26,221 nucleotides of DNA, from positions 1 through 26,221 of IMG/VR virus record IMGVR_UViG_3300025809_000110; one strand, written 5' to 3'. The notes under the pieces are model-generated. The model was not told where the DNA came from. It made no database searches and was given only the letters and a program-made list of their open reading frames with translations. The DNA comes from a virus. Shown in pieces: positions 3,247 through 26,221 of this stretch. Position 1 is the stretch's first letter; each line of letters opens with the position of its first letter. The translations under genes were made by a program, and so were the position numbers.

Positions 3247-3463
3247 GGAATTAATTAAGGTAGCAAAAGAAGCTATTGTTGATTCTGATGATGATATATC
3301 CGCTGATAGACTTAAAAATGCAGCAGCTACTAAAAAGCTAGCTATATTTGATGCGTTTGAAATACTTAACCGTATTGAAGAAGAAGAGGGTTACTTAGAG
3401 ACGAAAGATACTAATAGCAAACAAGCCAAATTTAAAGGCTTTGCTGAAGGAAGATCGAAATGA
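3191..3463 (+). CDS. Small helical protein before terL; candidate small terminase subunit
   Basis: This 90-residue, mostly alpha-helical, acidic protein has a recognisable block DRLKNAAATKKLAIFDAFEI (residues 39-58) between charged helices. It overlaps the end of the previous gene by 56 bases and overlaps the terL start by 4 bases (ATGA at 3460-3463). That ATGA arrangement is the classic position and coupling of a small terminase subunit. However, 90 residues is short for a TerS, and no DNA-binding helix-turn-helix is obvious, so the terminase role is inference from position only. The frame has no other internal ATG, so the start at 3191 is the only ATG choice. A shorter form from a non-ATG codon after 3246 would avoid the overlap. 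Confidence 0.68.
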   Translation: MNVEETKRSIIQAGQKAVEELIKVAKEAIVDSDDDISADRLKNAAATKKLAIFDAFEILNRIEEEEGYLETKDTNSKQAKFKGFAEGRSK

Positions 3464-8073: not shown

Positions 8074-8106
8074 AGTAAATTTTTAACTATTTAATTATAT
8101 TATATC

Positions 8107-9273
8107 ATGTCAGAACCAGTAAAACAAGAAGGAGATTTTAAAATCAAAAAGAAAACTCCTAGAAAATTTTCAAATGAGCCAAGTGCTCCAGCAAAAATTG
8201 ATTTAAGTCAACCAAAAGAAGCGGATGTTACCAAAGTGGTAATTGATCAAGCAGAAGAAAAAGAAGTTGTTGCAGAACAACCAACTATTGTGGCAGAGGA
8301 GCAAGTGCAAGTGCAAGAATCAGAGCAAGAGCAAGAGCAAGAGCAACCGGTTGTATTGCAGGAAATAACAGAAGAAGAAGTTCAGCAAGAAACTAAAAAA
8401 GTAGAAGCTGAAATAAAAGAAGCAGTAAGAGACGAAAGAGTATCTGGAAAACCGTTACCGGAAAACATAGAGAAATTAGTTACTTTTATGGAAGATACCG
8501 GTGGAACTGTACAAGATTTTGTACGTTTAAATGCGGATTATACTAATATAAGTGAAACTGCTTTATTAAAAGAATACTATTCAAAAACAAAACCTTATTT
8601 AGAAGGTGATGATGTGAATATTTTATTAGAAGACTTTTCATATGATGAAGAGTTAGATGATGAAAAAGATATACGCAAGAGAAAAATTGCGTTTAAAGAA
8701 GAGGTTGGAAAAGCCAAACACTATTTAGAAGGACTTAAGAGTAAATATTACGACGAGATCAAGTTGAGACCGGGCGTTACTCAAGAGCAGCAAAAAGCAG
8801 TTGATTTTTTCAATCGATACAAAGAGGAAGAGCAAGTAAATGCGCAGTCAAGAGATGCCTTTGTTCATGGTACTAATGATTACTTTTCTAGTGATTTTAA
8901 AGGTTTTAATTTCAACGTAGGAGAAAAGAAGTTTAGGTATTCTGTAAAAGACACCGACAATGTAAAAGCAAATCAATCTGATCTAAAGTCCGTAGTTGGA
9001 AAGTTTCTAAACGAAAAAGGACAAGTTAAGAATTATGCTGATTATCATAAAGCCATTTATGCTGCAAGAAATGCCGACACTTTAGCTCAGCACTTTTACG
9101 AACAAGGAAAAGCTGATGCCGTTAGAGACATAACAGCTAAGTCAAATAACATTCAAACAGATGTTAGACAATCAGTCCCTGGTAGCGTATTTGTGAATGG
9201 ATTAAAAGTGAAATCAATCAGCGGAGCGGACTCTTCAAAACTAAAAATTAAACAACGAAAATTTAAAAATTAA
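8107..9273 (+). CDS. Putative scaffolding protein
   Basis: This 388-residue protein sits between portal and major capsid protein, the usual place for a scaffold. Residues 40-115 are highly acidic and Glu/Gln-rich, with an in-frame Glu-Gln repeat (73-80). The centre is charged and mostly helical. The extreme ends share a short basic motif: KIK at 12-14 with RKF at 19-21 near the N-terminus, and KIK at 380-382 with RKF at 384-386 at the C-terminus. Scaffolds of other phages commonly use a basic terminal helix to bind the coat protein, which fits. No serine-protease motif of a prohead protease is evident. The role is assigned by position and composition rather than by a recognised domain. The 33-base gap upstream is pure A/T leader. 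The stop lies 5 bases before the capsid ATG. Confidence 0.68.
   Translation: MSEPVKQEGDFKIKKKTPRKFSNEPSAPAKIDLSQPKEADVTKVVIDQAEEKEVVAEQPTIVAEEQVQVQESEQEQEQEQPVVLQEITEEEVQQETKKVEAEIKEAVRDERVSGKPLPENIEKLVTFMEDTGGTVQDFVRLNADYTNISETALLKEYYSKTKPYLEGDDVNILLEDFSYDEELDDEKDIRKRKIAFKEEVGKAKHYLEGLKSKYYDEIKLRPGVTQEQQKAVDFFNRYKEEEQVNAQSRDAFVHGTNDYFSSDFKGFNFNVGEKKFRYSVKDTDNVKANQSDLKSVVGKFLNEKGQVKNYADYHKAIYAARNADTLAQHFYEQGKADAVRDITAKSNNIQTDVRQSVPGSVFVNGLKVKSISGADSSKLKIKQRKFKN
8323..8346 (+). repeat. Four tandem copies of the hexamer GAGCAA
   Basis: Four perfect copies of GAGCAA follow a related stretch (GAGCAAGTGCAAGTGCAAGAA) just upstream. They encode a Glu-Gln dipeptide repeat in the acidic part of the putative scaffold. 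Because the unit is six bases, gain or loss of copies would lengthen or shorten the protein without breaking the frame. Confidence 0.85.
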
Positions 9274-9278
9274 AAATT

Positions 9279-10736
9279 ATGGCTTTAACACCACAATTCG
9301 GTTCAATCAAACCGAGTCAAAAACAACAAGCTTTAGATTCCAACTATCTAAACTTTACAGACGGAACCACTACGGCTTTCGCAGAACAATACTTACCAGA
9401 AGTATATGAGCAAGAAATTGAAAGATACGGTAACCGTACTTTATCTGGATTCTTACGTATGGTTGGCGCTGAAATGCCAATGACTTCTGATCAAGTAATT
9501 TGGTCTGAGCAAAATAGATTACACGTATCTTATACTGGAGTAGTTAATGCTGTCGTAGGAAACGTAAGTACTTTAACTATACCTTTAGATTTAACACCTG
9601 CTGATCCTAAAGATTATGTAGCAAATGTTATTTCTAAAAACCAAACTATTGTAATAATTGATCCAGCTACTAACGCTGAATTAAAAGCATTAGTATTATC
9701 TTCTGATGTTACAACTGGAGATCTTGAAGTAGCACCTTATACTGCTGCTGATACAAGTGGACTGGGAGCTACAGGGCTTAAGATATTTGTTTATGGTTCT
9801 GAATATGCAAAAGGTTCTACCTTAGCAGCTGACGATTACCAAAGCATCACTCCATCTTTTACACAATTCTCTAACTCCCCAATCATTATCCGAAACAAAT
9901 ACGTTGTATCTGGATCTGATACTGCACAAATTGGATGGGTAGAAGTTGCAACTGAAGACGGAACATCTGGATACTTATGGTATTTAAAAGCTGAATCTGA
10001 AACTCGTTTACGTTTTGAAGATTACTTAGAAATGTCAATGGTAGAAGGTGAGCTTGCTGCTGCAGGATCTAAAGCATTAGCTAGTGGTAAAAAAGGAACA
10101 CAAGGTTTCTTTGCTGCTATTAATGACAGAGGAAATGTAAACAGTGGCTTTGATGCTACAACTGGATTAGGACAGTTTGATGAAATCCTACAAAACTTAG
10201 ACACACAAGGTGCGATTGAAGAAAACATGTTATTCTTAAACCGAATTTCTAATTTGGCTTTTGACGATATGCTTTCTGGTGTTGGTTCTCCAACAGGCGC
10301 TGGAGCTGTTTATGGTGGTGGTAGTTCTTTTGGGGTATTTGAAAACTCTGAAGAAATGGCACTTAACTTAGGTTTCTCAGGTTTCCGTAGAGGATCTTAC
10401 GATTTCTATAAGACTGACTGGAAATACTTAAATGATGCTTCAACAAGAGGTGCAGCTGATCCATTGACTAGCTCACAAGTTGGAGATATCCAAGGTGTAT
10501 TAGTTCCTGCTGGAACATCTACTGTATACGATCAAGTATTAGGTACAAACATCAGACGTCCATTCTTACACGTTCGTTATAGAGCTTCACAAGCTGACGA
10601 CAGACGTATGAAGAACTGGGTTACTGGATCTGTTGGTGCAGCTACTTCTGATCTTGATGCAATGGAGGTACACTTCCTTTCTGAAAGATGTCTTTGTGTA
10701 CAAGGAGCAAACAATTTCGTATTGTTCACTGTATAG
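9279..10736 (+). CDS. Major capsid protein (HK97-fold type)
   Basis: This 485-residue protein is the expected shell subunit. It follows the scaffold by 5 bases and begins MALTPQFGSIKPSQKQQALD, a start I associate with capsid proteins of Bacteroidota podoviruses. It has the even, Gly/Ala/Thr-rich, cysteine-poor composition of a coat protein. The region from about residue 75 to 185 is beta-rich and may be an inserted surface domain. The later part includes long helical and loop segments (EMSMVEGELAAAGSKALASG) as in the P domain of the HK97 fold. The codon choice looks more optimised than in its neighbours, as expected for the most abundant product. The leader is an A/T tract (aaaaattaaaaattATG) and the gene ends at TAG followed by a strong hairpin. 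Assignment rests on position, size and composition; I cannot verify the fold. Confidence 0.85.
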   Translation: MALTPQFGSIKPSQKQQALDSNYLNFTDGTTTAFAEQYLPEVYEQEIERYGNRTLSGFLRMVGAEMPMTSDQVIWSEQNRLHVSYTGVVNAVVGNVSTLTIPLDLTPADPKDYVANVISKNQTIVIIDPATNAELKALVLSSDVTTGDLEVAPYTAADTSGLGATGLKIFVYGSEYAKGSTLAADDYQSITPSFTQFSNSPIIIRNKYVVSGSDTAQIGWVEVATEDGTSGYLWYLKAESETRLRFEDYLEMSMVEGELAAAGSKALASGKKGTQGFFAAINDRGNVNSGFDATTGLGQFDEILQNLDTQGAIEENMLFLNRISNLAFDDMLSGVGSPTGAGAVYGGGSSFGVFENSEEMALNLGFSGFRRGSYDFYKTDWKYLNDASTRGAADPLTSSQVGDIQGVLVPAGTSTVYDQVLGTNIRRPFLHVRYRASQADDRRMKNWVTGSVGAATSDLDAMEVHFLSERCLCVQGANNFVLFTV

Positions 10737-10738
10737 AC

Positions 10739-10797
10739 AAGAGTAAATTAATGTAATTTTTACCCTCGTTGTACTGACGGGGGTAACTATTACTCTT
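10739..10797 (+). terminator. Two-tier RNA hairpin after the capsid gene
   Basis: Nested inverted repeats fill the capsid to auxiliary-protein gap. The inner stem pairs TTACCCTCGT (10760-10769) with ACGGGGGTAA (10777-10786) around a 7-base loop: ten pairs with one G-T wobble. The outer stem pairs AAGAGTAA (10739-10746) with TTACTCTT (10790-10797), eight perfect pairs. There is no long T run downstream, so it may be a leaky terminator, an RNA processing site or a 3' end stabiliser for the capsid message rather than a strong intrinsic terminator. Confidence 0.6.
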
Positions 10798-10822
10798 ATA
10801 AATTATTAAATTATATCATATT

Positions 10823-11647
10823 ATGGCTACTAAAAAAGCTCCAGCAAAAAAAGTTGAGGTTGCTCCTCAGCCAACTGTTGCAAAATCTGCACCAGTTCAA
10901 CCCACAAAACCAACGTGGGAAATTAAAGATAGAAATTATTATCTATTGCACTCAAAGTCACCGCTAACTTATACAATCCAATCTAGGCATTCAAGAAGAT
11001 TTCCTTTATTGTGGTTTGATGATGTTAAAATGGAACAAAGAGAATTAAGATATGCAACTAATCAAAACTCACCGTTTAGAGATGAACAAAAAGGTGATGC
11101 AACATTAGGGCACATCATATTTAAAAATGGGACTTTATTCGTTCCTAAGGAAAGTCAATCCTTACAAAAGATTTTGTCATTATATCATCCAGGCGTAGGT
11201 AAAAAATACGCAGAGTTTGATCACGTAGCAGATGCTATTGATGAGTTAGACTTTTTAGACTACCAGATTGATGCTTTAAATGCAGCAAGAGAGATGGATG
11301 TTGACATGGGCGAAGCAATAATGCGAACAGAACTTGGTTCTAAGGTCACTTCAATGACTTCTAAGGAGCTTAAAAGGGATTTGCTATTGTTTGCTAAAAG
11401 AAACCCCGGGCTGTTCTTAGAACTAGCCAATGATGATAACGTTCAGTTGAGAAATGTAGCTATTGTAGCTAGAGAACAAGGTGTAATTGCTTTATCCTCA
11501 GATCAACGAACATTTACCTGGGCTACAAATGGAGCTAAACTAATGACTGTTCCTTTTGACGAAAACCCTTACTCAGCGATGGCCGCTTACTTCAAAACCG
11601 ACGAAGGTGTTGATGTTTTCAAGTCAATAGAGAAAAAGCTGAAATAA
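10823..11647 (+). CDS. Putative auxiliary head protein
   Basis: I do not recognise a named domain in this 274-residue protein. Residues 1-30 are Lys/Ala/Pro-rich and probably disordered. Residues 33-115 contain the distinctive blocks YYLLHSKSPLTYTI, RRFPLLWFDD and RELRYATNQNSPF, which look like a compact beta-rich domain. The C-terminal part (about 185-274) is helical, with DVFKSIEKKLK at the end. Similar proteins seem to occur beside the capsid gene in related environmental phages (from memory). Position between the capsid gene and the ring proteins suggests an auxiliary capsid, decoration or head-completion role. It is the only gene in the window isolated by intergenic gaps on both sides (86 and 71 bases), each with a long hairpin, so it may be expressed at its own level. 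The start follows an A/T leader resembling that of the scaffold gene. Confidence 0.72.
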   Translation: MATKKAPAKKVEVAPQPTVAKSAPVQPTKPTWEIKDRNYYLLHSKSPLTYTIQSRHSRRFPLLWFDDVKMEQRELRYATNQNSPFRDEQKGDATLGHIIFKNGTLFVPKESQSLQKILSLYHPGVGKKYAEFDHVADAIDELDFLDYQIDALNAAREMDVDMGEAIMRTELGSKVTSMTSKELKRDLLLFAKRNPGLFLELANDDNVQLRNVAIVAREQGVIALSSDQRTFTWATNGAKLMTVPFDENPYSAMAAYFKTDEGVDVFKSIEKKLK

Positions 11648-11660
11648 ACATGTAATACTA

Positions 11661-11701
11661 TATAGTAGATAGGCCGCTTTAAAGGTGGCCTAACTACTAT
11701 A
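11661..11701 (+). terminator. Two-tier RNA hairpin after the auxiliary head gene
   Basis: Left arm TATAGTAG (11661-11668), an unpaired A, then TAGGCCGC (11670-11677). Right arm GTGGCCTA (11685-11692), an unpaired A, then CTACTATA (11694-11701). Two eight-pair stems are stacked across a single A-A mismatch with a 7-base loop (tttaaag) and one G-T wobble. The layout matches the hairpin after the capsid gene. There is no downstream T run, so the same caveat applies: weak terminator, RNA processing or stability element. Confidence 0.6.
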
Positions 11702-11718
11702 ATTAATAAAATATTAAA

Positions 11719-12540
11719 ATGGCTATAAACGTAAATACAGTGTATCAAACCGTTTTATCTATACTAAATAAAGAGCAGAGAGGTTATTTAACTCCTGACG
11801 AGTATAATAAGATAGGAGCTCAAGCTCAGTTAGAAATATTTGAGGGTTACTTTCCTAGCGGAGATCAATTCAATAGAAAGAATCAAAACAATTCTCAAAA
11901 TGACACTGAATGGTTTAACATTTACGATAATGTGGTCACAAACTTAGAACCATTTATATACAGGGACGCTACCTGGCAAAACGCATCTTCTTTTGCTCCT
12001 TACTGGACTCTTACTCCCGCAGTTACACTCGCTTTGGATGGTAGGGTAGTTAAGCAAGTAGGAAATGTTGAGGTTCAATATAATACAGCTAGTAGTAATA
12101 ATTCTTCAAATGGATTAATTCAAACTTCAATTTGTGAAAGAATTTCTAAAAAAGAATATAATTTAATAACAAGGTCTAGATTAACTGCACCGTCGGTTAA
12201 TGACCCTGTATATTACGTTAATAATTTTAACTTATCAGCTCCTAATTTAAGGATATATCCTAATCCAACACCTTCATCAATAAGTATTGCTAATGGTTTG
12301 GTTACTTCTGAGTTAATAGTGCAACCATTAAATCCTCAATGGAATTACACTATAGATCCGACGGTTGGAGCATACATATATGACGATGTTAATAGCATCA
12401 ATTTTGAATTGAATCCTTCAGAGCAAACTGATTTAGTATTAAGAATACTATTGTACGCAGGAGTGGTAATAAGAGACCCTCAAATAATACAAGCGGCTGC
12501 TACGGAAATTCAAAAAGAGGAAATACAAGAAAAATCATAA
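11719..12540 (+). CDS. Head-tail connector / ring (adaptor) protein 1
   Basis: This 273-residue protein begins MAINVNTVYQTVLSILNKEQ and continues RGYLTPDEYNKIGAQAQLEI (21-40). This is a helical N-terminal signature I associate with the first ring or adaptor protein under the portal in Bacteroidota podoviruses and crAss-like phages. Residues 65-215 are mostly beta-strand with Asn/Ser loops. Residues 225-260 form a further helical segment (SEQTDLVLRILLYAGVVIRD, DPQIIQAAATEIQKEEIQEK). Such proteins bind the portal base and start the short tail. The next gene starts 3 bases after the stop, and the operon continues with a second ring protein. Family assignment is from motif memory and position, with no computed match. 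Confidence 0.75.
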   Translation: MAINVNTVYQTVLSILNKEQRGYLTPDEYNKIGAQAQLEIFEGYFPSGDQFNRKNQNNSQNDTEWFNIYDNVVTNLEPFIYRDATWQNASSFAPYWTLTPAVTLALDGRVVKQVGNVEVQYNTASSNNSSNGLIQTSICERISKKEYNLITRSRLTAPSVNDPVYYVNNFNLSAPNLRIYPNPTPSSISIANGLVTSELIVQPLNPQWNYTIDPTVGAYIYDDVNSINFELNPSEQTDLVLRILLYAGVVIRDPQIIQAAATEIQKEEIQEKS

Positions 12541-12543
12541 TAA

Positions 12544-13785
12544 ATGGGCTTAATAACAGAAAATAATTCTCAATATTACGCAGGTTCTCAGCATGTGGTT
12601 GGCAATGGCGTATCAACTATTAGTAGCGCGAATTTTACATTTGACACACCTTTAAGCTTAGGTTCAGCAGGTGCGTGGTTGAATACAGATCCTTACTACC
12701 CATTAAATAACTTTAAAATATATGTTAGTACCGACGGCGGCACAACGTTTGTTGAATGGCTAACTGAATATGAGTTAAAAACATCTTCAACTTCAGAAGG
12801 AAATATAACATCTGTTGTTACATTCATAGGCACATTACCTTCACCAACTAGTATAGTAGTAGTGCAGTTAAAATCACTAACTGGTGGTCAATATGGAAAT
12901 AGAGATGCTTTTGGCGATACTGTAGAAGAAAACTACGGTAGTTATTCATATCTTACTTTAAATGAAGCCGTAGAAAATTATATGGTAGGCTTTGTTGGAG
13001 ATGGAAAAATAATACAAACCGCTAAAAAGTATGATATAAATTTTCATGCTAAAAGAGGGCTTCAAGAATTTAGCTATGACTTACTAAAAAGTATAAAATC
13101 TCAAGAGCTAACAATCCCAAACAACCTATCAATACCTATACCTCAAGACTACGTAAACTACGTAAAGTTCTCGTGGGTAGATGGGCTAGGTGTAAAACAC
13201 ATTATATACCCGACCACGTTAACAAGTAATCCCGACACTATACCTCAACAAGATGTATATGGTACACCTATGCAAGACGCTTTTGGTAATAACTTGCAAA
13301 CAACTTCTATCACTGAACAAAGATGGGATAGCAATGATACCAGAAGAATAACAGGTGGATATGACCAAAATTTTGTAGATGCGGATGCGGATCAACATAA
13401 TTTTAATAGAATAGGTGTAGGCCAACGGTATGGCTCAAATCCTCTTACTAGTCAAACAAATGGTTGGTTTACTATAAATGAAAGAACAAATCAGATTGCG
13501 TTTTCTAGTAACTTGATTAATAAGGTTATAATATTTGAATACGTTTCAGACGGATTAGCATATGACGCTGATTCCAGGGTTCCTAAAATGGCTGAAGATG
13601 CTTTGTATGCTTATATAAGTCATGCTATTGTTGCCACTAGAGCTAATCAACCAGAATATTTGGTTCAAAGATTAAAGAAAGAGAAAAGCGCTAAAATGCG
13701 TAATGCAAAAATAAGGTTATCTAATATTAAGCTAGAAGAGATTACTCAAGTTATGAGGGGCAAATCTAAATGGATTAAACACTAA
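12544..13785 (+). CDS. Tail ring / tubular protein 2 with extra N-terminal beta domain
   Basis: This 413-residue protein seems to have two parts. Residues 1-120 are a beta-rich domain (AGAWLNTDPYYPLNNFKIYV, STDGGTTFVEW) of the kind found at the start of phage tail and fibre proteins. Residues 135-400 look like a podovirus adaptor: helices around TLNEAVENYMVGFVGDGKII and YDINFHAKRGLQEFSYDLLK, then PQDYVNYVKFSWVDGLGVKH, and a C-terminal helical bundle (PKMAEDALYAYISHAIVATR, then a Lys-rich tail). The Lys-Arg-Gly-Leu-Gln-Glu helix and the Pro-x-Asp-Tyr-Val strand recall ring proteins of crAss-like phages, with a role similar to P22 gp4 or T7 gp11. It would join the first ring to the nozzle. The gene is 3 bases after its upstream partner and 6 bases before the nozzle gene. 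Confidence 0.72.
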   Translation: MGLITENNSQYYAGSQHVVGNGVSTISSANFTFDTPLSLGSAGAWLNTDPYYPLNNFKIYVSTDGGTTFVEWLTEYELKTSSTSEGNITSVVTFIGTLPSPTSIVVVQLKSLTGGQYGNRDAFGDTVEENYGSYSYLTLNEAVENYMVGFVGDGKIIQTAKKYDINFHAKRGLQEFSYDLLKSIKSQELTIPNNLSIPIPQDYVNYVKFSWVDGLGVKHIIYPTTLTSNPDTIPQQDVYGTPMQDAFGNNLQTTSITEQRWDSNDTRRITGGYDQNFVDADADQHNFNRIGVGQRYGSNPLTSQTNGWFTINERTNQIAFSSNLINKVIIFEYVSDGLAYDADSRVPKMAEDALYAYISHAIVATRANQPEYLVQRLKKEKSAKMRNAKIRLSNIKLEEITQVMRGKSKWIKH

Positions 13786-13791
13786 AATTAA

Positions 13792-16700
13792 ATGGCAGAA
13801 GCTAAAAATACTTTTCTTAAGTCTAAAATGAATAAAGACCTAGATGATAGATTACTACCATCTGGAGAATATAGAAATGCTAGGAATGTAGCAGTAAGTA
13901 AATCTGAAGGGCAAGACGTAGGAGCATTGGAGAACGTTTTAGGTAATACTAAGATAGCTAATATATTACCGGACTTTGAGATAGAAGTGTTAAGCAGTTC
14001 ATCCGGGGTAGGCGATGACATAATTATTAGTAGTTTTTCATCAGCTGCTTCTTTTAATAATAATGACCGAAGGATTCACATCAATTATGAGGTAATAGTA
14101 CAAGGTTTTGTAGTAGGATTTGTTTCGGCTTATTCAAACAGTACTGCAGGTATGACAATAACGGTTCCTGGCGGTAGTGGAATGTTCCCCCCTGGATATT
14201 TTTTTAAAATAAGACCTAATTTAGAAATAATAGGTACCTTACCTATAGTTTCTACAGATAAAATATACTTATTTGCAACAAACTATACAGATACATCAGC
14301 TAGTGGGCTAGCTAATTTTAGCTCAGATACTGGCTTGAGTATAGTAAAAACTAACCCAGGCAATAGTGCAATATTAGAGTATAACTTAAATACTCCTAGC
14401 CAAGCGCCTATGGTCCTAGTTGAAGGATCATGGTTAAACTTTTCTAAAACTTTTCCCATAATAAATTCTAATTTATTAGAGACATTACTTTTTTGGACAG
14501 ATGATAGAAATCAACCTAGAAAAATAAATGTAAATACAGCTTTAAACGCTTCTTTTACAAGCGAGCAACAATATGCAGATGGAAATTGGGGATACTATAA
14601 GAACGAAGATCATGTTAGTGTAGCCAAATATGCCCCTATAACTCCAATACAATTGTGGAAATTATATGAAAACGGTGGAAGCCCTACATATGAAACAACA
14701 ATGAAGGATGTTGTGAGTGAAAAGTTACCAGATGGTACTACAGCTAATCCTGATTATGATGCCACTTATGGAGGAGACCCTGATTTTCTTGAAGATAAAT
14801 TTGTTAAGTTTAGTTATAGGTTAAAGTTTGATGACGGAGAATATTCTTTAATGGCTCCTTTTACACAAGCTGCTTATATACCTAAACAAGACGGATTTTT
14901 TCTTACAGATGATGAGGATGATACTTTTAGATCAACCGTGGTGGGTTTCATGGAAAACAAAGTTAACAATATTTCCTTAAGAATACCTATGCCCTATGTT
15001 ATTAATGGTACCGGGGAAAATCCAGAAGAAGCTAATTTGATGCAGTGTGATCAAATTTCCGAGTTAATGAAGATTACTGAGGTTGAAATTTTATATAAAG
15101 AATCAGATGCATTAGCAGTACAAGTTTTAGATAGACTGCCTTTAAGTACAGTAGAAACAGGGGGTACATCTAAGTTTTATGAATATGATTACCAAGCAAG
15201 AAAGCCTTATAGAACTTTACCCTCCGCAGCACTAGTAAGGGTGTTTGATAAAATACCGCCAAGAGCTAAAACTCAAGAGGTGATAAGTAATAGGGTTGTT
15301 TATGGTAATTATGTAAACAAACTTACTCCACCTGAAACATTAAATTACAATGTAGCCTTAAGTGATAAATACCCTTTGTTTGATTTGTTTGGTGAACCGA
15401 ATCCTGAACAGGGGCGTACCTCTGTTGTAGAATATCCTCAGCATACAGTAAAAAATAATCGTAACTACCAGGTAGCTATAGTGCTTTCAGATAGATATGG
15501 TAGATCTTCCACTCCAATATTATCTGAGGTGACCGATTCTGTTTCATCGCAGGGTATAAACTACGGAGGATCCACATTTTACGCTCCCTACAGATATTCA
15601 GCAGCTGGACCAGGTGTTAATGAATCCACGGTTTTAAACTGGGCAGGAGACTCTATAAAAGTGTTGTTCAACGACGTAATAACATCGACAAAAAATGATT
15701 TACTAAGCAACAGTACAGGTACAGGAACGCCGGGTATTCATTCTTATAATACAAGTATAAGTTCACTAATGGTTCCAGGAGGTTGGTTTAGCTATAAAGT
15801 AGTGGTTAGACAAGTGGAGCAAGAATACTATAACATTTATTTACCCGGTATAATAAACGGATACCCTGGGCACACAGAATATTTTGGAGAAGAAGAGGGA
15901 GTTACCGCTTTTACAACATTATACAGTGACAACATAAACAAGCTGCCTAGAGATTTATCCGAGGTTGGACCAGAGCAAAGACAATATAGAAGCAGTACAC
16001 GATTATATGGTAGAGTAACAAACGTTGATTTTGCCACAGCCCCTTTTAATACCCAATATTATCCAGGAAGAGAAGCGCACGATCCCGATGCTATTGGTGT
16101 TGAATCTGAATTAGCTGGTGGTGGTGGTAATAATGCTCATCCTAGTATATACCAAGCAGACACAGACCCTTATTTAGTTAGACTATCTACAGATAGTGCT
16201 ATTGGTCAAGAAGACACACAAAGTGGTGATCTTGATTTTCCTGTTTTAGCTGTTTACGAAACGGAGCCTGTAGTATCAAGAATAGATATATTTTGGGAAA
16301 CATCAACCAGTGGTTGGTTAGGCAGGTTAAACGAGCTAATACTAACCTCTACGGAAGCACCAATAGGTATTTCAGCTACAAACTTTTTATTAAAAGAGGA
16401 TCAAGAGCAATCCGGAGCAGGAACAGTTACAGGAGCAACAAATTCTCCTTACGTTACAGATTTATTTCAACCTATTAATCAAGCGCAACTAGCAGTGGAT
16501 GATGGTATTCTTACCGACTTTCAAGTAATAAGTGCTTCAGGAGTAAATAGAACGGCAGATTTTGCAATAGAATCAGGCCCAGGAAACGTAGGTGATCCTG
16601 GATATGGGTTTAGAATAAAAATTGCAAATGATTTTTATTATGGATCCACAGCTACCACGGATGAAACATATACTTTTTCATTTAATGTAGCTACATCATC

Positions 16701-18331: not shown

Positions 18332-19732
18332 ATGGCATACGCTATAGAAGTTAAATATTTCAATTCCTTCTTGTTAAAGAAAGTAGTAGATGATTCAAAT
18401 CTACCTGTATGGCCTAGCTTAATAACAGCTACCACGGAGAACAATACCAGGTGGCCTACATTTTCACAACAAGCTGAAGATTCCGTCCCTAATGATTGGG
18501 TCATTGAAGAGGCTAGACTGCGAGGTGGATATAACAATGTTGAAGTTGGGTATGGTGTTAAAGCATATGCTGTTGAACCAAACCCTAATGGATCTTTGCT
18601 TTTAAACGGGTTAATATATTCAGGTATATTCAACTCTAGAACAGGTATTAATCAAACAAATGTTTTTTCAGTTGGCGAAGAGATTACTAAGTCTGCTGAT
18701 CCAGCTAATGGCTCTATACAAAAGCTTTACGCGGAGGATACAAATTTAATTATATTCCAAGAAAATAAAGTGAGTAGGGCGTTAATAGATAAGGATGCTA
18801 TATATTCCGCTGAAGGAGGAGGAGCTGTAACTAATGTCAACACAACAATAGGAACAATACAACCTTATCAAGGTGAGTATGGAATAAGTAAAAACCCTGA
18901 AAGCTTTGCTGTATATGGGTATCAAAAATATTTTACAGATAAAAATAGAAATGCAGTAATGAGATTATCTATGAACGGTCTTGAAGAGATATCAAGGTTT
19001 GGGATGATTGATTACTTTAGAGATAACTTAACAAATTTAGGAGATGGAAAGGCTGTAGGAGCTTATGATGTATACTCCAAACAATACGTTTTATCTTTGC
19101 AAGGAGCCGGGTTAAGTAATGTCAATGCCACTTTAACTTTTGATGAATCTGTTAAAGGTTGGGTTAGTTTTATGGATTACATTCCTAGTTTTATGTTTAG
19201 TCTTAAAAACAAGTTTTATAGCACAACAGGTGGAGATATTTACGAGCAATTTTCAAATATTGTAGATAGAAACTCATTTTATGGAACTACTTATAATAGT
19301 TCTGTTACGCTTGTTCATAACCCAAAGCCAAGCATGTCTAAGGTGTTTAAAACAATAAATTATGAAGGCAGTGATGGGTGGACCGTAACGTCTCAAATAA
19401 CATCTGAAAGTGATATAGGAAATCCTATATTAAGTTTTTTACAGGGAACATACGATTCTAGTGTGCCTCCAAGAACAGGAACCGCGGCCTCAGGACCAGG
19501 GTCTGTAGCTCCTAGAAGGTATGCAGGTTTTGCAAAAAAAGAAGGTAAATATCACGGTAAAATTGTTAATGGAACTGGCGTAAAATCAAGAGAAATTATA
19601 TTTGGAAACGATATGACTGGTATAAAAGGCTATTTCTCCACAGTGACAATAACTACTGACAAAGTAACAAACCCAGGTGGAGCAAAAGAATTGTTTGCAG
19701 TTTCTACAAATTATGTGGAATCCGCTTATTAA
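18332..19732 (+). CDS. Tail nozzle / muzzle protein, propeller-like second part
   Basis: This 466-residue beta-rich protein contains blocks I associate with the distal half of podovirus nozzle proteins (T7 gp12 and crAss muzzle type): LIYSGIFNSRTGINQTNVFS, SIQKLYAEDTNLIIFQENKV (128-147) and GEYGISKNPESFAVYGYQKY, followed by FTDKNRNAVMRLS (about 180-215). The repeated strand-turn pattern with Tyr/Phe-Thr-Asp-Lys looks like propeller blades. In the relatives I have in mind these blocks lie in the same chain as the preceding protein's N-terminal motif, so here the nozzle seems to be made from two polypeptides. The start at 18332 is in a different frame from the upstream gene, after TAGTAA and a 25-base A/T gap, and the N-terminus (WVIEEARLRGGYNNVEVGYG) is well formed. 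It therefore does not look like a sequencing frameshift. Confidence 0.78.
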   Translation: MAYAIEVKYFNSFLLKKVVDDSNLPVWPSLITATTENNTRWPTFSQQAEDSVPNDWVIEEARLRGGYNNVEVGYGVKAYAVEPNPNGSLLLNGLIYSGIFNSRTGINQTNVFSVGEEITKSADPANGSIQKLYAEDTNLIIFQENKVSRALIDKDAIYSAEGGGAVTNVNTTIGTIQPYQGEYGISKNPESFAVYGYQKYFTDKNRNAVMRLSMNGLEEISRFGMIDYFRDNLTNLGDGKAVGAYDVYSKQYVLSLQGAGLSNVNATLTFDESVKGWVSFMDYIPSFMFSLKNKFYSTTGGDIYEQFSNIVDRNSFYGTTYNSSVTLVHNPKPSMSKVFKTINYEGSDGWTVTSQITSESDIGNPILSFLQGTYDSSVPPRTGTAASGPGSVAPRRYAGFAKKEGKYHGKIVNGTGVKSREIIFGNDMTGIKGYFSTVTITTDKVTNPGGAKELFAVSTNYVESAY

Positions 19733-19747
19733 ATTAAATCAAATTAA

Positions 19748-20155
19748 ATGGAATTAAAAGCAAGAATATTACAAGACGAAGATTGGGATACATTATGTAG
19801 TTGGTGGGATAGCTGGCCAAAATGGGTTAATCCACCTAAGTCGTTTTTACCGGACAATGGAAAAGGCGGCTTAATGATAGAAAAAAACGGTAAACCAATT
19901 GTAGCTGGGTTTTTGTATTTAACTAACTCAGACGCTGTCTTATTAGAATGGATAGTATCAGATCCAGAATATAGAGATAAAGATCGTAAACAAGCTTTAG
20001 AATTGCTTATAACAAGTGCAGAAGATGCGTGCAAAGCTTTAGGCAAAGTACATATGTTCAGCATAGGAAGAAATAAACATTTAATAGAAACGCATAAAAA
20101 ATTAGGTTGGACCGCTGATCCGGATCCATCTTATGAACTTATTAAAAACATATAA
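19748..20155 (+). CDS. GNAT-fold acyltransferase-like protein
   Basis: This 135-residue protein has the layout of the GNAT N-acetyltransferase superfamily. An N-terminal strand and helix (MELKARILQDEDWDTLCSWW) leads to a central pair of strands (GLMIEKNGKPIVAGFLYLT), then motif A (LLEWIVSDPEYRDKDRKQAL) with its long helix, and a C-terminal strand-helix (HMFSIGRNKHLIETHKKLGW). The normal acetyl-CoA pyrophosphate loop is Arg/Gln-x-x-Gly-x-Gly/Ala. Here the corresponding stretch is RDKDRKQA with no glycine, so cofactor binding is doubtful. Some T7-like podoviruses carry a GNAT-like protein (T7 gp13 area) that is needed for assembly of internal virion proteins. The location directly before the gp14-like gene suggests an analogous role rather than a metabolic one. 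The gene ends 3 bases before its neighbour. Confidence 0.72.
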   Translation: MELKARILQDEDWDTLCSWWDSWPKWVNPPKSFLPDNGKGGLMIEKNGKPIVAGFLYLTNSDAVLLEWIVSDPEYRDKDRKQALELLITSAEDACKALGKVHMFSIGRNKHLIETHKKLGWTADPDPSYELIKNI

Positions 20156-20158
20156 ATT

Positions 20159-20881
20159 ATGGCAGTAGTAACAGCAATTGCAGGCGCAGCTATAGCAGTA
20201 GGAGGAGCTGTAGCAGGTTCAATTTCCGCAGGTAAAGAAGCTAAAAGAGCTGGTAGAAGAGCCGCTAGCGCAAGAGCCCGTATGGATTACATTGAAGATA
20301 ATAGACAAGAGGTAATAAACCCTTATGATCAGATGTCCTCAGTTGCTGATATGGCTACGGATTTACAGAATACATTATCCAACCCATTTGCTAACCTAAG
20401 TGTTGCGACAGGGGCAGCGGAAATGCAAGCTGAACAAGCTGATATTGCATTAGCAAATACTCTAGATACACTGTTAGCAACAGGTGCAGGCGCAGGTGGA
20501 GCAACAGCTTTAGCTCAAGCAGCTTTACAAAGTAAAAAAGGTATATCCGCAAGTATAGAAGGCCAAGAAGCTACTAATGAAAAAATGAAAGCTCAAGGCG
20601 AGCAAGATGCTCAAAAAGCAAGATATGCTGAAGCGGTTCGTATGCAAAATACAGAAATGCAAGATGAAATAAGATTACAAGGGGCTCAAGCTCAAGGTAG
20701 AGCTTATGAATTTGAAAGTGAGGAGCAAAGAGATGAAAATGAATTAGCTAGATTAGCTGGACAGCAACAACAAGCAAATGCCGCAAGGTCATCTGCTAAA
20801 GCAGGTCAAGCTGGTGCGTGGGGAGGATTAGCTAGTGCGGGAGGAAGCATAATGAGCGCCGGTATAGGATCAATGAAATAA
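20159..20881 (+). CDS. Internal virion (ejection) protein, T7 gp14-like
   Basis: This 240-residue protein starts with a Gly/Ala-rich hydrophobic segment (residues about 4-25, TAIAGAAIAVGGAVAGSISA) and then a basic stretch (KEAKRAGRRAASARAR). A long Ala/Gln/Glu-rich helical middle follows (AAEMQAEQADIALANTLDTL). It ends in another small-residue hydrophobic segment (about 222-238, AWGGLASAGGSIMSAGIG). This is the architecture of T7 gp14-type internal proteins, which leave the head first and insert into the outer membrane to make a channel for DNA. Similarity to gp14 is in layout and composition, not in a motif I can point to. It follows the GNAT-like gene by 3 bases and precedes two further large internal-type proteins. 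Confidence 0.7.
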   Translation: MAVVTAIAGAAIAVGGAVAGSISAGKEAKRAGRRAASARARMDYIEDNRQEVINPYDQMSSVADMATDLQNTLSNPFANLSVATGAAEMQAEQADIALANTLDTLLATGAGAGGATALAQAALQSKKGISASIEGQEATNEKMKAQGEQDAQKARYAEAVRMQNTEMQDEIRLQGAQAQGRAYEFESEEQRDENELARLAGQQQQANAARSSAKAGQAGAWGGLASAGGSIMSAGIGSMK

Positions 20882-20904: not shown

Positions 20905-22503
20905 ATGTCAAATACAATAAATTGGAACCCGCCTACTATTAAGGCAGCCAGAATAACAGGTAAAGGTGGTAGTGTCAATACTTCTACGCCTAACTGGAAT
21001 GCCGTTGGTCAATCTATAGCTAATGTAGGTCAATCTATAGCCGCTGGTTTAAATTTACGTACACAGAATATAAAATACGAAAAGCAAAGACAATTAGAAT
21101 TGTTGAAAACAAGAAACAACATAGCTACTACTCAATATGATAAAGTTGCTCAGCTTCAAACAACAAATAATAATGAATTTGAAATAAGTAAAAATAATCT
21201 ATTTCATAGTCAAATGGACAAGTATGTTAAGATAAGAACAGCTATGGATGATCCTAACAGTGGTATAGATATGGCTATGGCTCAACAAGCTTTATCGGAA
21301 ATAAACGCTGGTGTTTCTAAATATGCTAAGCAAGCACCTGTAGTTTTAGCAGCGGCTGCGACACTGAAAGAAGCCTTAAATAAACCGTTTGGTACCGCTG
21401 GTGCAGTAGCTGGGGGTGTACCCACTGCTCAACAAAACCTTTTATTAAAACTAATTGAAGGGGGAGATGTATCTATAGCAGATCAAAATGGTGATTTTAT
21501 TATTTACGACAAAGATAAAAAAGGAAATGTGCTAAATGTGTTTAACATTGATCAGTACATGCAAGCTACCAACGGAGGTAAAGATCCAGAAGATTATTTT
21601 AGAACTATAATAGATACAAAAGAAGAGCAAAAAGATGCTTCTGAGGCCATAGTAGGAACTGTTCAGAAGCCTAGTCAAACGTATTATGACTATGAAACCA
21701 AAACATCTAAAGATGGACAGTCTAGCATTGTCAATTTAGAATGGAAAACGAATGACAAAGGGCAGCTTATAGGAAGAGAGGCTGCTATATTGAATATTTC
21801 TAAGAGTGGCTTTAACTACCTTGTAGACGATGTAAAAGAAACCACAGCTATGTCTGATTTGTGGAATGATGTTATTGGTCAAGATCCTTCTGGTATAACT
21901 GGTCAAGACACTCCTTGGGATCCAAAAGATAAAACAAAGAAAAAATATACAGTTAAAGGGTATATAGATGCTGACTCAGGACAATTTGTTTTTGATCCAG
22001 AAGGTGATTCATCTCAAATATACAAAGATTCTTTTGGTAAAGAACTAGAATTAACTCAATCAGAATTTGCTAAAAGATGGATGGCCGAGAGTGCTGTATT
22101 TAAAAACGCTCCAAAACCCGCTATTGTAAGTAGATCTAAAAAAGCAGAAGGCGATAAAGGATATTCATATGATATGTATGAAGGCTATGTAAATAATCAA
22201 AAGAAAATAGCTGCTGCTCTTAAAGCAGATCCTAAATCTGACTTAACAGATTTTGATGGGCAGATACTTTCAGCTGGGTCAACCGGAGCTTACAAATTAC
22301 GCGTTTCGGGGCCAACGGAAGCTAACCCGAAAACTCCTATTACTGCTTCATGGGAGCATGTGGTACTAGTAGATGCCTATGCACAAGATGGCAAAAGCAA
22401 AATTAAAATGTGGAAACGTGTTGATGGCGAGAAGACTATACCAGCTCAAGGAAGTTGGTCTGAAATGAAAGCGCGTACAAAACAATATAGAACAAAGAAC
22501 TAA
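20905..22503 (+). CDS. Putative internal virion protein, unknown fold
   Basis: I do not recognise this 532-residue protein. The N-terminus (1-60) is Asn/Ser/Gly-rich and includes a short internal duplication (VGQSIANVGQSIAAG). Residues 55-150 form a helical, Gln/Lys-rich region (LRTQNIKYEKQRQLELLKTR). The remainder is soluble-looking with mixed strands and helices, including WGHVV-like beta segments near the C-terminus (ASWEHVVLVDAYAQDGK) and a basic end (KARTKQYRTKN). There is no membrane segment or catalytic motif. It lies between the gp14-like gene (23-base gap) and the giant ejection-type protein (15-base gap), the slot occupied by gp15 in T7-like phages. A role as an ejected core protein is therefore plausible by position only. 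Confidence 0.68.
   Translation: MSNTINWNPPTIKAARITGKGGSVNTSTPNWNAVGQSIANVGQSIAAGLNLRTQNIKYEKQRQLELLKTRNNIATTQYDKVAQLQTTNNNEFEISKNNLFHSQMDKYVKIRTAMDDPNSGIDMAMAQQALSEINAGVSKYAKQAPVVLAAAATLKEALNKPFGTAGAVAGGVPTAQQNLLLKLIEGGDVSIADQNGDFIIYDKDKKGNVLNVFNIDQYMQATNGGKDPEDYFRTIIDTKEEQKDASEAIVGTVQKPSQTYYDYETKTSKDGQSSIVNLEWKTNDKGQLIGREAAILNISKSGFNYLVDDVKETTAMSDLWNDVIGQDPSGITGQDTPWDPKDKTKKKYTVKGYIDADSGQFVFDPEGDSSQIYKDSFGKELELTQSEFAKRWMAESAVFKNAPKPAIVSRSKKAEGDKGYSYDMYEGYVNNQKKIAAALKADPKSDLTDFDGQILSAGSTGAYKLRVSGPTEANPKTPITASWEHVVLVDAYAQDGKSKIKMWKRVDGEKTIPAQGSWSEMKARTKQYRTKN
21007..21041 (+). repeat. 14-bp direct repeat inside the 532-residue gene
   Basis: GGTCAATCTATAGC occurs at 21007-21020 and again at 21028-21041, in frame and 21 bases apart, encoding VGQSIAN and VGQSIAA. 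The copies match perfectly over these 14 bases, which suggests a recent seven-codon duplication. Confidence 0.75.
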
Positions 22504-22518
22504 CTAATCATATAAAAT

Positions 22519-25500
22519 ATGCCTATTTACAAAAACGAGTCAGGTGAAACTATGACGCAAGAGCTGTTGCAGGAAGCTGCAGAAATGAGCGGAATGACTA
22601 TTGACCAATACGCAAGCTCTCTTGGATACAAATTAGTAGACGAAGAAGAAGAAACTGTTATAGACCCGGGAAAAGAAATGGGCGCTGCAACTCAGGGTGC
22701 AAGTGTGGGGCCTCTAAGACCAGAGTACCAGGACCAGGAACAAGCTTTGCCATTAAACGGTACGGGTTGGAACTTGGAAAATATTTTATCGGATTCACAA
22801 AATCCAGTTAGTGCAGAATTAGATACTCCAACAGGTAAAACAGACGAAAAAGGTGGATGGTTAACAATGGATAGCAAGCTGGAAACAGCAAGAGCTGCAT
22901 TAAATGCTATTAAAATTTCATCTGAACAAGTAGGTGAAATTGAAGCGCAAGCAGATAAACCTATTGAGATTGTAGAAAGAGAATTGGAATACAATTATAA
23001 ATTAGATAAAATGCTGCCTACGGGTCCTATCATTAACACCACTTATGAAGATGCCTATAAGGATTACATACAACAGGCTAAGGTAAGTTTAGCGCAATCG
23101 TCCAATAATGAGTATGATGTATATAATGTACCTGAAGACCAATGGAGAGAAAAAGCTAGAGGTATGTACATTGACGAGAAAAAAGCAACTGAGATGCGTC
23201 GTCAGTCTGAAGAGGTATTAGAACAATACGAAAAAGATGTTTTTGGCAGTTGGTTTAGCTTTGCTAGAGGTAAAAAGCTTCTTAAAGGGGCCGCTGGAGT
23301 TCCGTCATACGTGCTTACAGATGAGGAAGCAGAGTATGTTGCAGGTCATGCTATATTAACCTCTGAGCTTAAAGAACAAGGCAAAGAAGCTAATGCTGAG
23401 TTTTCATCAACAGTAGACAAAATTACTACATACGCCAATATAATGCAAACTACTTCGGTAGAACTTAATGACTTGCAGTTTAAATTTAATAACGATCCCG
23501 GCTCTATAACAGAGATGGACAAATTAAGATATACAGAGTTAGCGAATACCCAAGCTACAGCTGGTCAAATATATGGTACTTTATTTAATAAATTAGGTGA
23601 ATTAGAAGGTACTTCAGATAAGGTTAATATCCTAGCGGATATGACCAAGAGAACATATAATAATCTTGACGTTGCTACAAATAGAATAACAGGAGCAGTT
23701 GTAAGAACTATGGCTGGACTGGGTAGTGTTGCGCATGAGCTTAGTCCCCAACAATTAATTAAAAGAACTACTGGATACGACGTAAACGAAGAAGGTGGGT
23801 ATTTACCAATGTTCTTAGCAGGTGTTGCTCCTGCTGGCTCTGACACTTTTAAAGAAGGGGTTGACGCGTTATACAGGGGAGTTGAAGAAATAGAAAATGC
23901 TACAAAACAACGACAACAGCTAGGGGAAATACAAGGGATTGAAGATTTTGGTGAGTTTATGCTAGATCTTTTTAGCGAGCAGGCCGTAAACACAGCTATT
24001 ACAGTTGGTACCGGCGGAGCTGGTCTTATTGCTGTATCTGCTGCTGCGGGTGGTAACAAGTTCAATGACATGGACTTAGAAATGGAACATGATCCAGATC
24101 TAAAAATCTCCGCATTCCAATTTTATGGTGCTGGAATTCTTTATGGTGCTGCTGAATATGTTACAGAAAAAGTTTCTCTTGGCCAAGCAAAAAGAGGTTT
24201 AGACTATTTAAAGTTTGGTAAAAACAACTTTAAGAAAGCTACGAAAGGAGCTAAGTCTTTTGATGTTGGCGAAGGTTTTACATTGGATACATTTTCAAAA
24301 AGAAAAGCTTTACTTGATTACGGTATAAACGTTAATAAAGAAGGTGGTGCTGAATTTGCGGCTCAACTTATAAACAATGGTGTTGATAAATTTTTATTAG
24401 ATAAAGACATCGCTATTACAGACGGGCTTGGTGAAGCATACTTGACGGGGTCTATAATGTCTGGCCTTGGATTTCAAGCACCAGTATTAGCAGGTGATAT
24501 ATACAGAGCTTTTAACGGAAGTAGTGAAATAACAAAGTTAAACAATAGATCCCAAAGACTTGAAGCTATTAGAAAGCAGCGTGAAACTATAATAAAAAAC
24601 ATGCCTAAAAATGGGGATGCTAATGCTGAAAACACTTTAAACATACTAGCAGAAGAGGCTGATAAGTTAATAATTGAAAACTTAAAATCTAAAAAGATTA
24701 ACGAGAATAGAATCAATGAGCTTAATAATAATGACAAAAGAACATTATTAGACATTGATGCTGAAACATACAAACTTAAACGTGGAATTGATAAGTTAAA
24801 TGAGAATCCTAACTTAGCCATGGAACAAAAGAAAAAGCTTATTGCAGATCTTCAGACTAAGATTATGGTGGCTAACCAGGTTAAAAATGTTATAATAGCA
24901 AATTCAACCAACTCTAAAGCTGTAGAAAAACAAAATAGACAGCAAATGCAGTATGCTGCGGAAAAAGATTTAACCTTTAAAGCTATTAATGCCACTACTC
25001 AAGAGCAAGCATATGAAGAGGTAGCAGTAGAACTTGACAATAAAATTGCAGAGATAAAAGAATCAGGTGAATTATCTAAAGAGCAAAAAGATCAAATAGA
25101 AGGAATTAAAGCCGTTAAAGTAGCAGTAAAAGAAGCTACTGATAATGGTAAATCTGCAGGGATGATGTTTGGGGCAGAAGTTGGTATTCCTATAGCTATA
25201 TCTGTAGGAGAAACTCTAGCAGCAGCAGGCTTAGGGGCTACTATTCTACACGAAACAGCGCATGCAACTTTATTTAAAAAGTTATTTGAAGGCAATGCGG
25301 ATATTATAGGATTAGTGTCTAGCTTTGAATCCTACATGACCGCCAACTTCAAAGGAGCACAAGCTAAGTTTGATCGCATTGACGCAGAATATCCTTTAGG
25401 AGAAGGCCCAGGCAAATTCTCAGCCGCTGAAATAGCTGAAGAAAAACTTGCTACCATGTTAGAGTACACTTACAATGTAGACATGAGTAAAGATCGTACA

Positions 25501-26221
25501 TTCTCTAAAAAAGTTGTAGATCAATTTAGAAAGGTTATACCAAAGTCAGAAGTAACAACCATAAAAAATGGACAAGACGTATTTAGAGCATTACAAAGTT
25601 TTGCTAGAGGATTTGATAAAGGAGAAATAACAGGTTTAGCAGATAAAGTACTTAAGGGTAATGTAAAAGCCGCTCAAACCGAAGCAAAGAAACAAGCTAA
25701 GCAATCAAAAGTTGCGCCTTCATTGACATCCGCAAAAGATAACTTAGGTAAAATTGAAGCTAAAGATTTAAAAGGTGTTGGAGCACAGACAGATATAGCT
25801 ATGGAGCTTCCTGGTATGGCATTAGCTCAAGTGCTTGGTAGATTTAACTTATCTCCACAAGTAGCAGCTGACATGAGAGATGCTGTAGTTGAGAAAATAT
25901 ATTTAGCTCAAGAAACAACTAAATGGGATGGTAGAGGTCAGTTATATGGCTTTATAAACGGTCGTATAGCTCTTAGAATCAAAGATATTGTAAAAGAGGA
26001 ATATAATAGACCTGCAGAAGAAAGATTATTTTTGTCATCAGTAGAGGGGCTTCAGGCTGAAGATCAGAAGGGTTTAGCTACACCTGATCCAACTCCAACT
26101 AAAACAGCTGAAAAACCTAAGTATAGAAAAATAAAAGACAGTAATGTTGTTTCTAATGAAACTATAGGAAAAATTAAAGCAAAAATAGTAAGCGCAGCTA
26201 GAGTATTAAAATCTAAACTAG
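22519..26221 (+). CDS. Giant ejection-type virion protein with HExxH zincin motif (3' truncated)
   Basis: The frame is open from ATG 22519 to the window end, giving at least 1234 residues with no stop. Residues 1-35 are a short helical start (MTIDQYASSLGYKLVDEEEE). Residues 489-513 are a Gly/Ala-rich hydrophobic stretch. Residues 680-870 are mainly charged coiled coil. A second hydrophobic segment (about 880-910, AISVGETLAAAGLGATIL) leads directly into HETAH (911-915), an HExxH metallopeptidase motif. About 60 residues later EEKLA (974-978) supplies candidate third-ligand glutamates, as in gluzincins. Residues 1135-1160 contain a WDGRGQLYGFINGRIALRIK segment. Very large multidomain proteins with peptidase modules are known from phages (polyvalent proteins and T7 gp16-type ejected proteins). 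Position after three internal-type genes supports ejection with the DNA. Enzyme activity is unproven, and the full domain set lies beyond the window. Confidence 0.78.
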   Translation, partial: MPIYKNESGETMTQELLQEAAEMSGMTIDQYASSLGYKLVDEEEETVIDPGKEMGAATQGASVGPLRPEYQDQEQALPLNGTGWNLENILSDSQNPVSAELDTPTGKTDEKGGWLTMDSKLETARAALNAIKISSEQVGEIEAQADKPIEIVERELEYNYKLDKMLPTGPIINTTYEDAYKDYIQQAKVSLAQSSNNEYDVYNVPEDQWREKARGMYIDEKKATEMRRQSEEVLEQYEKDVFGSWFSFARGKKLLKGAAGVPSYVLTDEEAEYVAGHAILTSELKEQGKEANAEFSSTVDKITTYANIMQTTSVELNDLQFKFNNDPGSITEMDKLRYTELANTQATAGQIYGTLFNKLGELEGTSDKVNILADMTKRTYNNLDVATNRITGAVVRTMAGLGSVAHELSPQQLIKRTTGYDVNEEGGYLPMFLAGVAPAGSDTFKEGVDALYRGVEEIENATKQRQQLGEIQGIEDFGEFMLDLFSEQAVNTAITVGTGGAGLIAVSAAAGGNKFNDMDLEMEHDPDLKISAFQFYGAGILYGAAEYVTEKVSLGQAKRGLDYLKFGKNNFKKATKGAKSFDVGEGFTLDTFSKRKALLDYGINVNKEGGAEFAAQLINNGVDKFLLDKDIAITDGLGEAYLTGSIMSGLGFQAPVLAGDIYRAFNGSSEITKLNNRSQRLEAIRKQRETIIKNMPKNGDANAENTLNILAEEADKLIIENLKSKKINENRINELNNNDKRTLLDIDAETYKLKRGIDKLNENPNLAMEQKKKLIADLQTKIMVANQVKNVIIANSTNSKAVEKQNRQQMQYAAEKDLTFKAINATTQEQAYEEVAVELDNKIAEIKESGELSKEQKDQIEGIKAVKVAVKEATDNGKSAGMMFGAEVGIPIAISVGETLAAAGLGATILHETAHATLFKKLFEGNADIIGLVSSFESYMTANFKGAQAKFDRIDAEYPLGEGPGKFSAAEIAEEKLATMLEYTYNVDMSKDRTFSKKVVDQFRKVIPKSEVTTIKNGQDVFRALQSFARGFDKGEITGLADKVLKGNVKAAQTEAKKQAKQSKVAPSLTSAKDNLGKIEAKDLKGVGAQTDIAMELPGMALAQVLGRFNLSPQVAADMRDAVVEKIYLAQETTKWDGRGQLYGFINGRIALRIKDIVKEEYNRPAEERLFLSSVEGLQAEDQKGLATPDPTPTKTAEKPKYRKIKDSNVVSNETIGKIKAKIVSAARVLKSKL

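Follow-up and report, generated by a model that had tools for sequence, protein, structure and literature searches.

The window analysed here, a stretch of 26,221 bases making up a virus record that is probably a fragment, closes with a giant open reading frame whose product contains the motif HETAH. This locus raises two questions: does the motif belong to a genuine zinc-peptidase-like domain and, if so, what might such a domain do in a protein of this kind?

The giant ORF and its genomic setting

The giant ORF is the final gene of a structural/late cluster that runs terminase, portal, capsid-like protein, a 1503-aa protein, muzzle protein, a small ORF, two mid-size ORFs and then the giant ORF itself. 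The features on which the argument depends are as follows.

3460-5664: terminase
5665-8073: portal
9279-10736: capsid-like virion protein
18332..19732, plus strand: protein with crassvirus muzzle domains (crAss_MUZ, crAss_MUZ_C), in a tail context
20159..20881, plus strand: 240-aa ORF with a glycine-rich hydrophobic N terminus, at the position of phi38:1 gp099 and elemo gp22
20905..22503, plus strand: 532-aa ORF directly upstream of the giant ORF, at the position of phi38:1 gp100 and elemo gp21
22519..26220, plus strand: giant ORF of at least 1234 aa, open at the 3' end of the window; putative polyvalent virion/cargo protein
23872..25110, plus strand: shared N-terminal module of the giant proteins (residues 452-864), common to phi38:1 gp101 and elemo gp20
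24961..25638, plus strand: zincin-like domain, residues about 815-1040, from the alignment of relatives and the model
25159..25203, plus strand: beta-hairpin predicted by the model, residues 881-895 (strands 881-883 and 892-895), aligned with SSGLYINGEIHIN in relatives
25249..25263, plus strand: HETAH, residues 911-915, in invariant columns; predicted zinc ligands His911 and His915, predicted catalytic Glu912
25438..25452, plus strand: EEKLA, residues 974-978; Glu974 and Glu975 are both invariant and either one is the predicted third zinc ligand
25801..26010 (approximate), plus strand: sub-threshold sigma-70 region-2-like segment, residues about 1095-1164, from alignment with the related loci L003, L004 and L009

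A comparable gene order is found in Cellulophaga phage phi38:1 (Pervagoviridae) and in the Flavobacterium elemo phages. Identity of the window terminase falls from 62% with MW202828.1 (Manatee Spring) through 45% with the elemo phages to 37% with phi38:1. The muzzle protein matches PF25729 (E 4e-12) and PF25731 (E 4e-7). The window phage is an uncultured, marine-type flavophage that has the elemo phages and phi38:1 among its relatives. By their positions, the 240-aa ORF is a candidate small ejection protein and the 532-aa ORF a candidate second cargo/ejection protein. The small ORF at 19748-20155, between the tail and cargo genes, lies where MW202828.1 has an annotated 'N-terminal acetyltransferase complex subunit'; phi38:1 and the elemo phages have an ORF of equal size at this position.

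Residues 452-864 of the giant ORF match phrog_22602, a 'virion structural protein' (E 6e-12), and the ORF is homologous to phi38:1 gp101 and elemo gp20, each of which is annotated 'structural protein'. Gene position, annotation and homology together suggest that the giant protein is carried in the virion. Great in length (its complete relatives measure 2272-3859 aa), multidomain and located next to virion genes, it is most readily taken for a phage 'polyvalent' virion/cargo protein; the candidate further domains are a sub-threshold sigma-70 r2 in relatives, DUF3293 in elemo gp20 and a sub-threshold GNAT in Gundel gp74.

The zincin-like domain and its relatives

The first-pass annotation had placed HETAH at residues 911-915 and EEKLA at residues 974-978 of the giant protein, and both positions were borne out. 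By chance a HExxH motif is expected 0.0014 times when this protein is shuffled and 0.06 times across all main ORFs of the window. Only one other HExxH is present in those ORFs, HEAGH in a Lys/Ala/Thr-rich protein (ORF 953-1762) that has no Glu helix, and it is probably a chance occurrence.

We scanned viral contigs with patterns that included neither motif, and this returned the loci L002, L003, L005 and L004. L002 is 84-86% identical to the window, and L002, L003 and L005 all possess HExxH and the downstream EE pair; an attempt to align the HELGH sequence of L004 to the window domain yielded no alignment. The elemo domain, likewise sought with patterns free of the motifs, was found at eight loci, and HExxH and EE were present in all eight, so that every locus found with motif-free patterns to hold the window-type domain had both. 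An alignment-based scan yielded 124 relatives; the 80 that were kept all have both motifs, a count that is biased because here, unlike in the two motif-free scans, the motifs themselves served as seeds. The invariant residues of 13 aligned sequences are G, I, H, E, H, E, E and G. Among 52 aligned phage domains, with identity down to 22-26%, the sole invariant columns are G33, H54, E55, H58, E110 and E111. Homologues lacking the HExxH residues had been named as a reason to doubt the site; the motif proved invariant both in these 52 domains and in the loci recovered with motif-free patterns. The window lineage (three sequences) matches the elemo lineage in hhalign with a probability of 86% (E 4.8e-6) across the hairpin, HExxH and EE. 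Purifying selection on the domain is indicated by a dN/dS between the window and L002 of 0.12 overall, and of 0.08 and 0.06 for the helices that bear the motifs; both motifs have synonymous changes only. The window-type domain is encoded in 68 Flavobacterium phage records (the cultured elemo group; host BAL314), and judged from such sequences its lineage is common in flavobacterial phages. Bacterial and archaeal genomes scanned with the profile of the elemo lineage yielded 31 pattern matches and no relatives, and a tblastn search of phage records with the whole L003 protein as query found no match.

AlphaFold2 modelled the window domain with moderate confidence (pLDDT 66.7, pTM 0.62) and the elemo-type domain, with 52 sequences, at pLDDT 81.8 and pTM 0.68. 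The order of elements in the elemo-type model is E9-13 H16-23 E33-36 E39-43 H49-67 (HExxH) ... H110-126 (EE). Both models predict strand, helix, strand, strand, HExxH helix and a later Glu helix, which is the E-H-E-E-H-H order of the minimal zincin, and the conserved Glu falls in the second helix, itself predicted, C-terminal to HExxH. HETAH had been described as following a hydrophobic helix; the model and the homologues show mostly a beta-hairpin there (strands at residues 881-883 and 892-895, the latter 'PIAI') and then the helix (905-918) that bears HETAH. A transmembrane hydrophobic helix ahead of the motif is ruled out by this hairpin. Of the gluzincin-type arrangement that had been proposed, the invariant HExxH and downstream Glu stand, in a predicted minimal-zincin order, and the preceding hydrophobic helix mostly falls. 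The invariance of the motifs in relatives and the predicted order of elements give good support to the broader proposal, a gluzincin-type site within a giant protein of virion/ejection type.

The fold check that had been suggested, a Foldseek search, found no solved zincin in the PDB that matched either model significantly, and VIA-align against the PDB produced Z scores of at most 5.7 with both, within the noise range. Anthrax lethal factor appeared in the VIA results for the window model (Z 4.9-5.3 over 137-159 residues), tied with unrelated rows, and was set aside as a fold match despite its agreement in direction with the HHpred lead for N4 of Iyer et al. Among predicted viral structures, matches with E below 1e-3 were to giant phage proteins and one MuF-C protein; weaker ones were to 'large polyvalent protein' entries, crAss-like proteins and the Gundel_1 giant protein. 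Since the PDB gave no significant match, it is on sequence pattern and predicted topology that the fold assignment rests, and on these the domain belongs to the zincin superfamily; we regard its zincin-like nature as very probable. None of the Pfam/NCBIfam peptidase families, M78, SprT-like and DUF5700 among them, reached its curated cut-off for the window domain, which is therefore filed in none of them. The sub-threshold leads were mixed with unrelated families; those that recurred were metallopeptidases, namely IrrE (PDB 3dte and 8slm), Spartan/SprT-like, M78, DUF5700 and phrog_87 'metallo-protease'. The kind of domain is already known from the giant injected proteins of other phages. What is new is a domain lineage, unnamed in the libraries searched, in the giant proteins of flavophages akin to elemo and phi38:1.

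The giant proteins themselves vary at this position. That of phi38:1, gp101, keeps the N-terminal module and has neither HExxH nor a zincin domain, the position being empty, so the domain is not essential to this class of protein. Gundel_1 gp74 (2482 aa) has HEFGH, the 3859-aa giant protein of MW202828.1 (L102 741-12320, minus strand of the record) has HEFGH twice, and L004 has HELGH at the zincin position. HExxH domains are common in these giant proteins, yet they are of differing lineages. Complete giants with a zincin-like motif measure 2272-3859 aa and phi38:1 gp101 measures 1691 aa, a size trend that is only suggestive because there is a single clean non-carrier; phi46:3 gp120, also without HExxH, was not counted as one as its gene may be split (gp121 is next to it).

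Several peculiarities of the related records were seen in passing. The MW202828.1 protein is deposited as 'reticulocyte binding/rhoptry protein', a name that looks wrong. In L004 an in-frame TAA (9587-9589) interrupts the giant gene shortly before HELGH, with the same frame resuming afterwards; it may be a sequencing error, a gene split or a site of read-through. In L005, at about 12960-13006, the giant gene is divided into an ORF of 1800 aa and an overlapping one of 879 aa, where L003 has a single ORF of 2665 aa. The C-terminal half of that L003 protein (7604-15601) holds HAD-phosphatase-like motifs, DFDDTLAFS ... VLTARP ... FVDDAYKN; a Pfam search up to E 1 gave no match to them.

What the domain may do

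We think it reasonably probable that a real gluzincin-type domain lies in a giant flavophage virion protein that is packaged with the ejection proteins and processes its own polypeptide. Within this reading the confidence differs from part to part. The domain is likely to be an active peptidase; His911, His915 and Glu974 or Glu975 would hold the zinc, with Glu912 acting as the general base. That its main substrate is the giant protein or one of its partner virion proteins has an even chance of being correct. The giant protein would be packaged together with the ejection proteins, and the domain may cut its own polypeptide in cis or in trans, whether while the particle is being assembled, inside the capsid or upon entry, with the cleavage freeing the N-terminal module from C-terminal effector-like domains. 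There is a precedent in P1 DdrB, a protein with a C-terminal MPTase that undergoes cleavage of its polypeptide prior to packaging (PMC5512222). Self-cleavage is not general, because the N4 virion RNA polymerase has a HExxH domain and is packaged unprocessed (PMC5512222).

The N4 polymerase is also the precedent for the idea that the zincin fold has been kept for packaging or architecture, without proteolysis that matters. It may itself be such a case: the region is needed for encapsidation of a protein that is packaged whole. A purely structural site would leave the catalytic Glu of HExxH free to vary; it is exactly the metal and catalytic residues that are invariant across 52 diverse sequences, which implies a metal centre, and we consider a solely architectural role quite unlikely. 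The same invariance weighs against a motif that arose by chance in a helical protein with no zinc site. The lack of a significant PDB fold match is in keeping with such an accident, but the expectation of 0.0014 in the giant protein, the invariance of HExxH in relatives and the equal invariance of the Glu pair in the second helix make it extremely improbable.

The first-pass annotation had pictured the peptidase cutting host cell-wall, membrane or antiviral proteins. This finds no support here, and processing of the giant protein is, by inference, better supported. A protease effector that is injected and acts after entry on host proteins of defence, envelope or regulation is nevertheless listed as a possible role of such MPTase domains by Iyer et al. 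(PMC5512222), and the occupation of the position by different HExxH domains (HEFGH in Gundel_1, two HEFGH in MW202828.1, HELGH in L004) is a turnover that fits an arms race. However, an autoprocessing module would fit this turnover equally well, and the domain is interior to the polypeptide rather than terminal; we rate the host-directed role as rather unlikely. Self-processing and action on the host can be told apart experimentally in a cultured phage-host pair, because the 68 Flavobacterium phage records with host BAL314 encode the domain.

A further lead lies just C-terminal to the zincin. The window, L003, L004 and L009 share the pattern DGRG-x2-YG-x2-NGRI-x2-RI-x-D there, the segments in relatives being at L009 6760-7020 and L003 about 10670-10820. 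Below cut-off, L009 has matches to Pfam Sigma70_r2 (E 0.004, over almost the full length) and to TIGR02937 (E 0.006). In L003 the Sigma70_r2 match has an E of 0.028 and ranks behind COMPASS-Shg1 (E 0.001), the best match there. The window segment itself matches neither Sigma70_r2 nor TIGR02937. The sigma-70 region-2 identity of the segment is a lead only. It would allow the giant protein to be an injected pro-transcription factor from which the zinc peptidase frees a sigma-like segment that guides the host's RNA polymerase to the early promoters of the phage. This is a very unlikely scenario in our estimation; were it true, it would be a sigma-based counterpart to the RNA polymerases that N4 and crAss-like phages carry in their virions.

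Comparison with known systems

The internal virion protein gp16 of phage T7 carries a transglycosylase. Like it, the window protein comes last among three putative ejection proteins, is the largest of them and has a predicted enzyme domain, a likeness of layout; it differs in having a zincin-like domain in place of the transglycosylase. IrrE is a cellular regulator and not a virion protein. The hairpin and HExxH segment of IrrE/ImmA (M78) aligns with that of the window (GAYDPEHHVILINSQ...TLAHEISHALLL), in a match of about 35 residues that is not significant (E 0.06-0.11). A counterpart from cultured phages is the 3694-aa elemo gp20 (Flavobacterium phage vB_FspP_elemoC_14-1A, YP_010356528), which shares the domain, the gene position and the 'structural protein' annotation; it differs in its extra domains (DUF3293 and others), and window residues 475-841 are only about 26% identical to it.

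The crassvirus cargo proteins (crAss001 gp45, gp46, gp47, gp49 and gp50; PMC10172136) are likewise large virion-carried proteins of the late cluster. The window tail protein bears crassvirus muzzle domains, and the giant ORF is likened to the cargo proteins by context; the words 'protease' and 'peptidase' do not occur in the text of PMC10172136, and a literature search combining crAss and zincin found nothing relevant. The C1 domain of the N4 virion RNA polymerase (PMC12633501) is also a HExxH domain within a giant protein ejected from the virion. That protein is packaged unprocessed, and the window protein has no N4-type polymerase match.

A peptidase in this position had been put forward as a different solution from that of T7-like phages; its kind has already been reported, zincin-like domains being the commonest domain of phage polyvalent proteins, including the N4 virion RNA polymerase and P1 DdrB (Iyer et al. 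2017, PMC5512222). These MPTases, which form 12 clades, have a core of strand, helix, two strands, HExxH helix and Glu helix (PMC5512222); Cellulophaga, Flavobacterium and crAss phages are not mentioned in that text. The window domain differs from them in reaching no Pfam/NCBIfam cut-off. It shares with those exemplified by P1 DdrB the zincin core, whose two C-terminal helices bear HExxH and then Glu, and the location inside a giant multidomain protein near late virion genes. Our findings confirm a zinc-peptidase-like domain in flavophage giant proteins that the databases searched name only 'structural protein', and tie this domain to the zincins already reported in polyvalent proteins.
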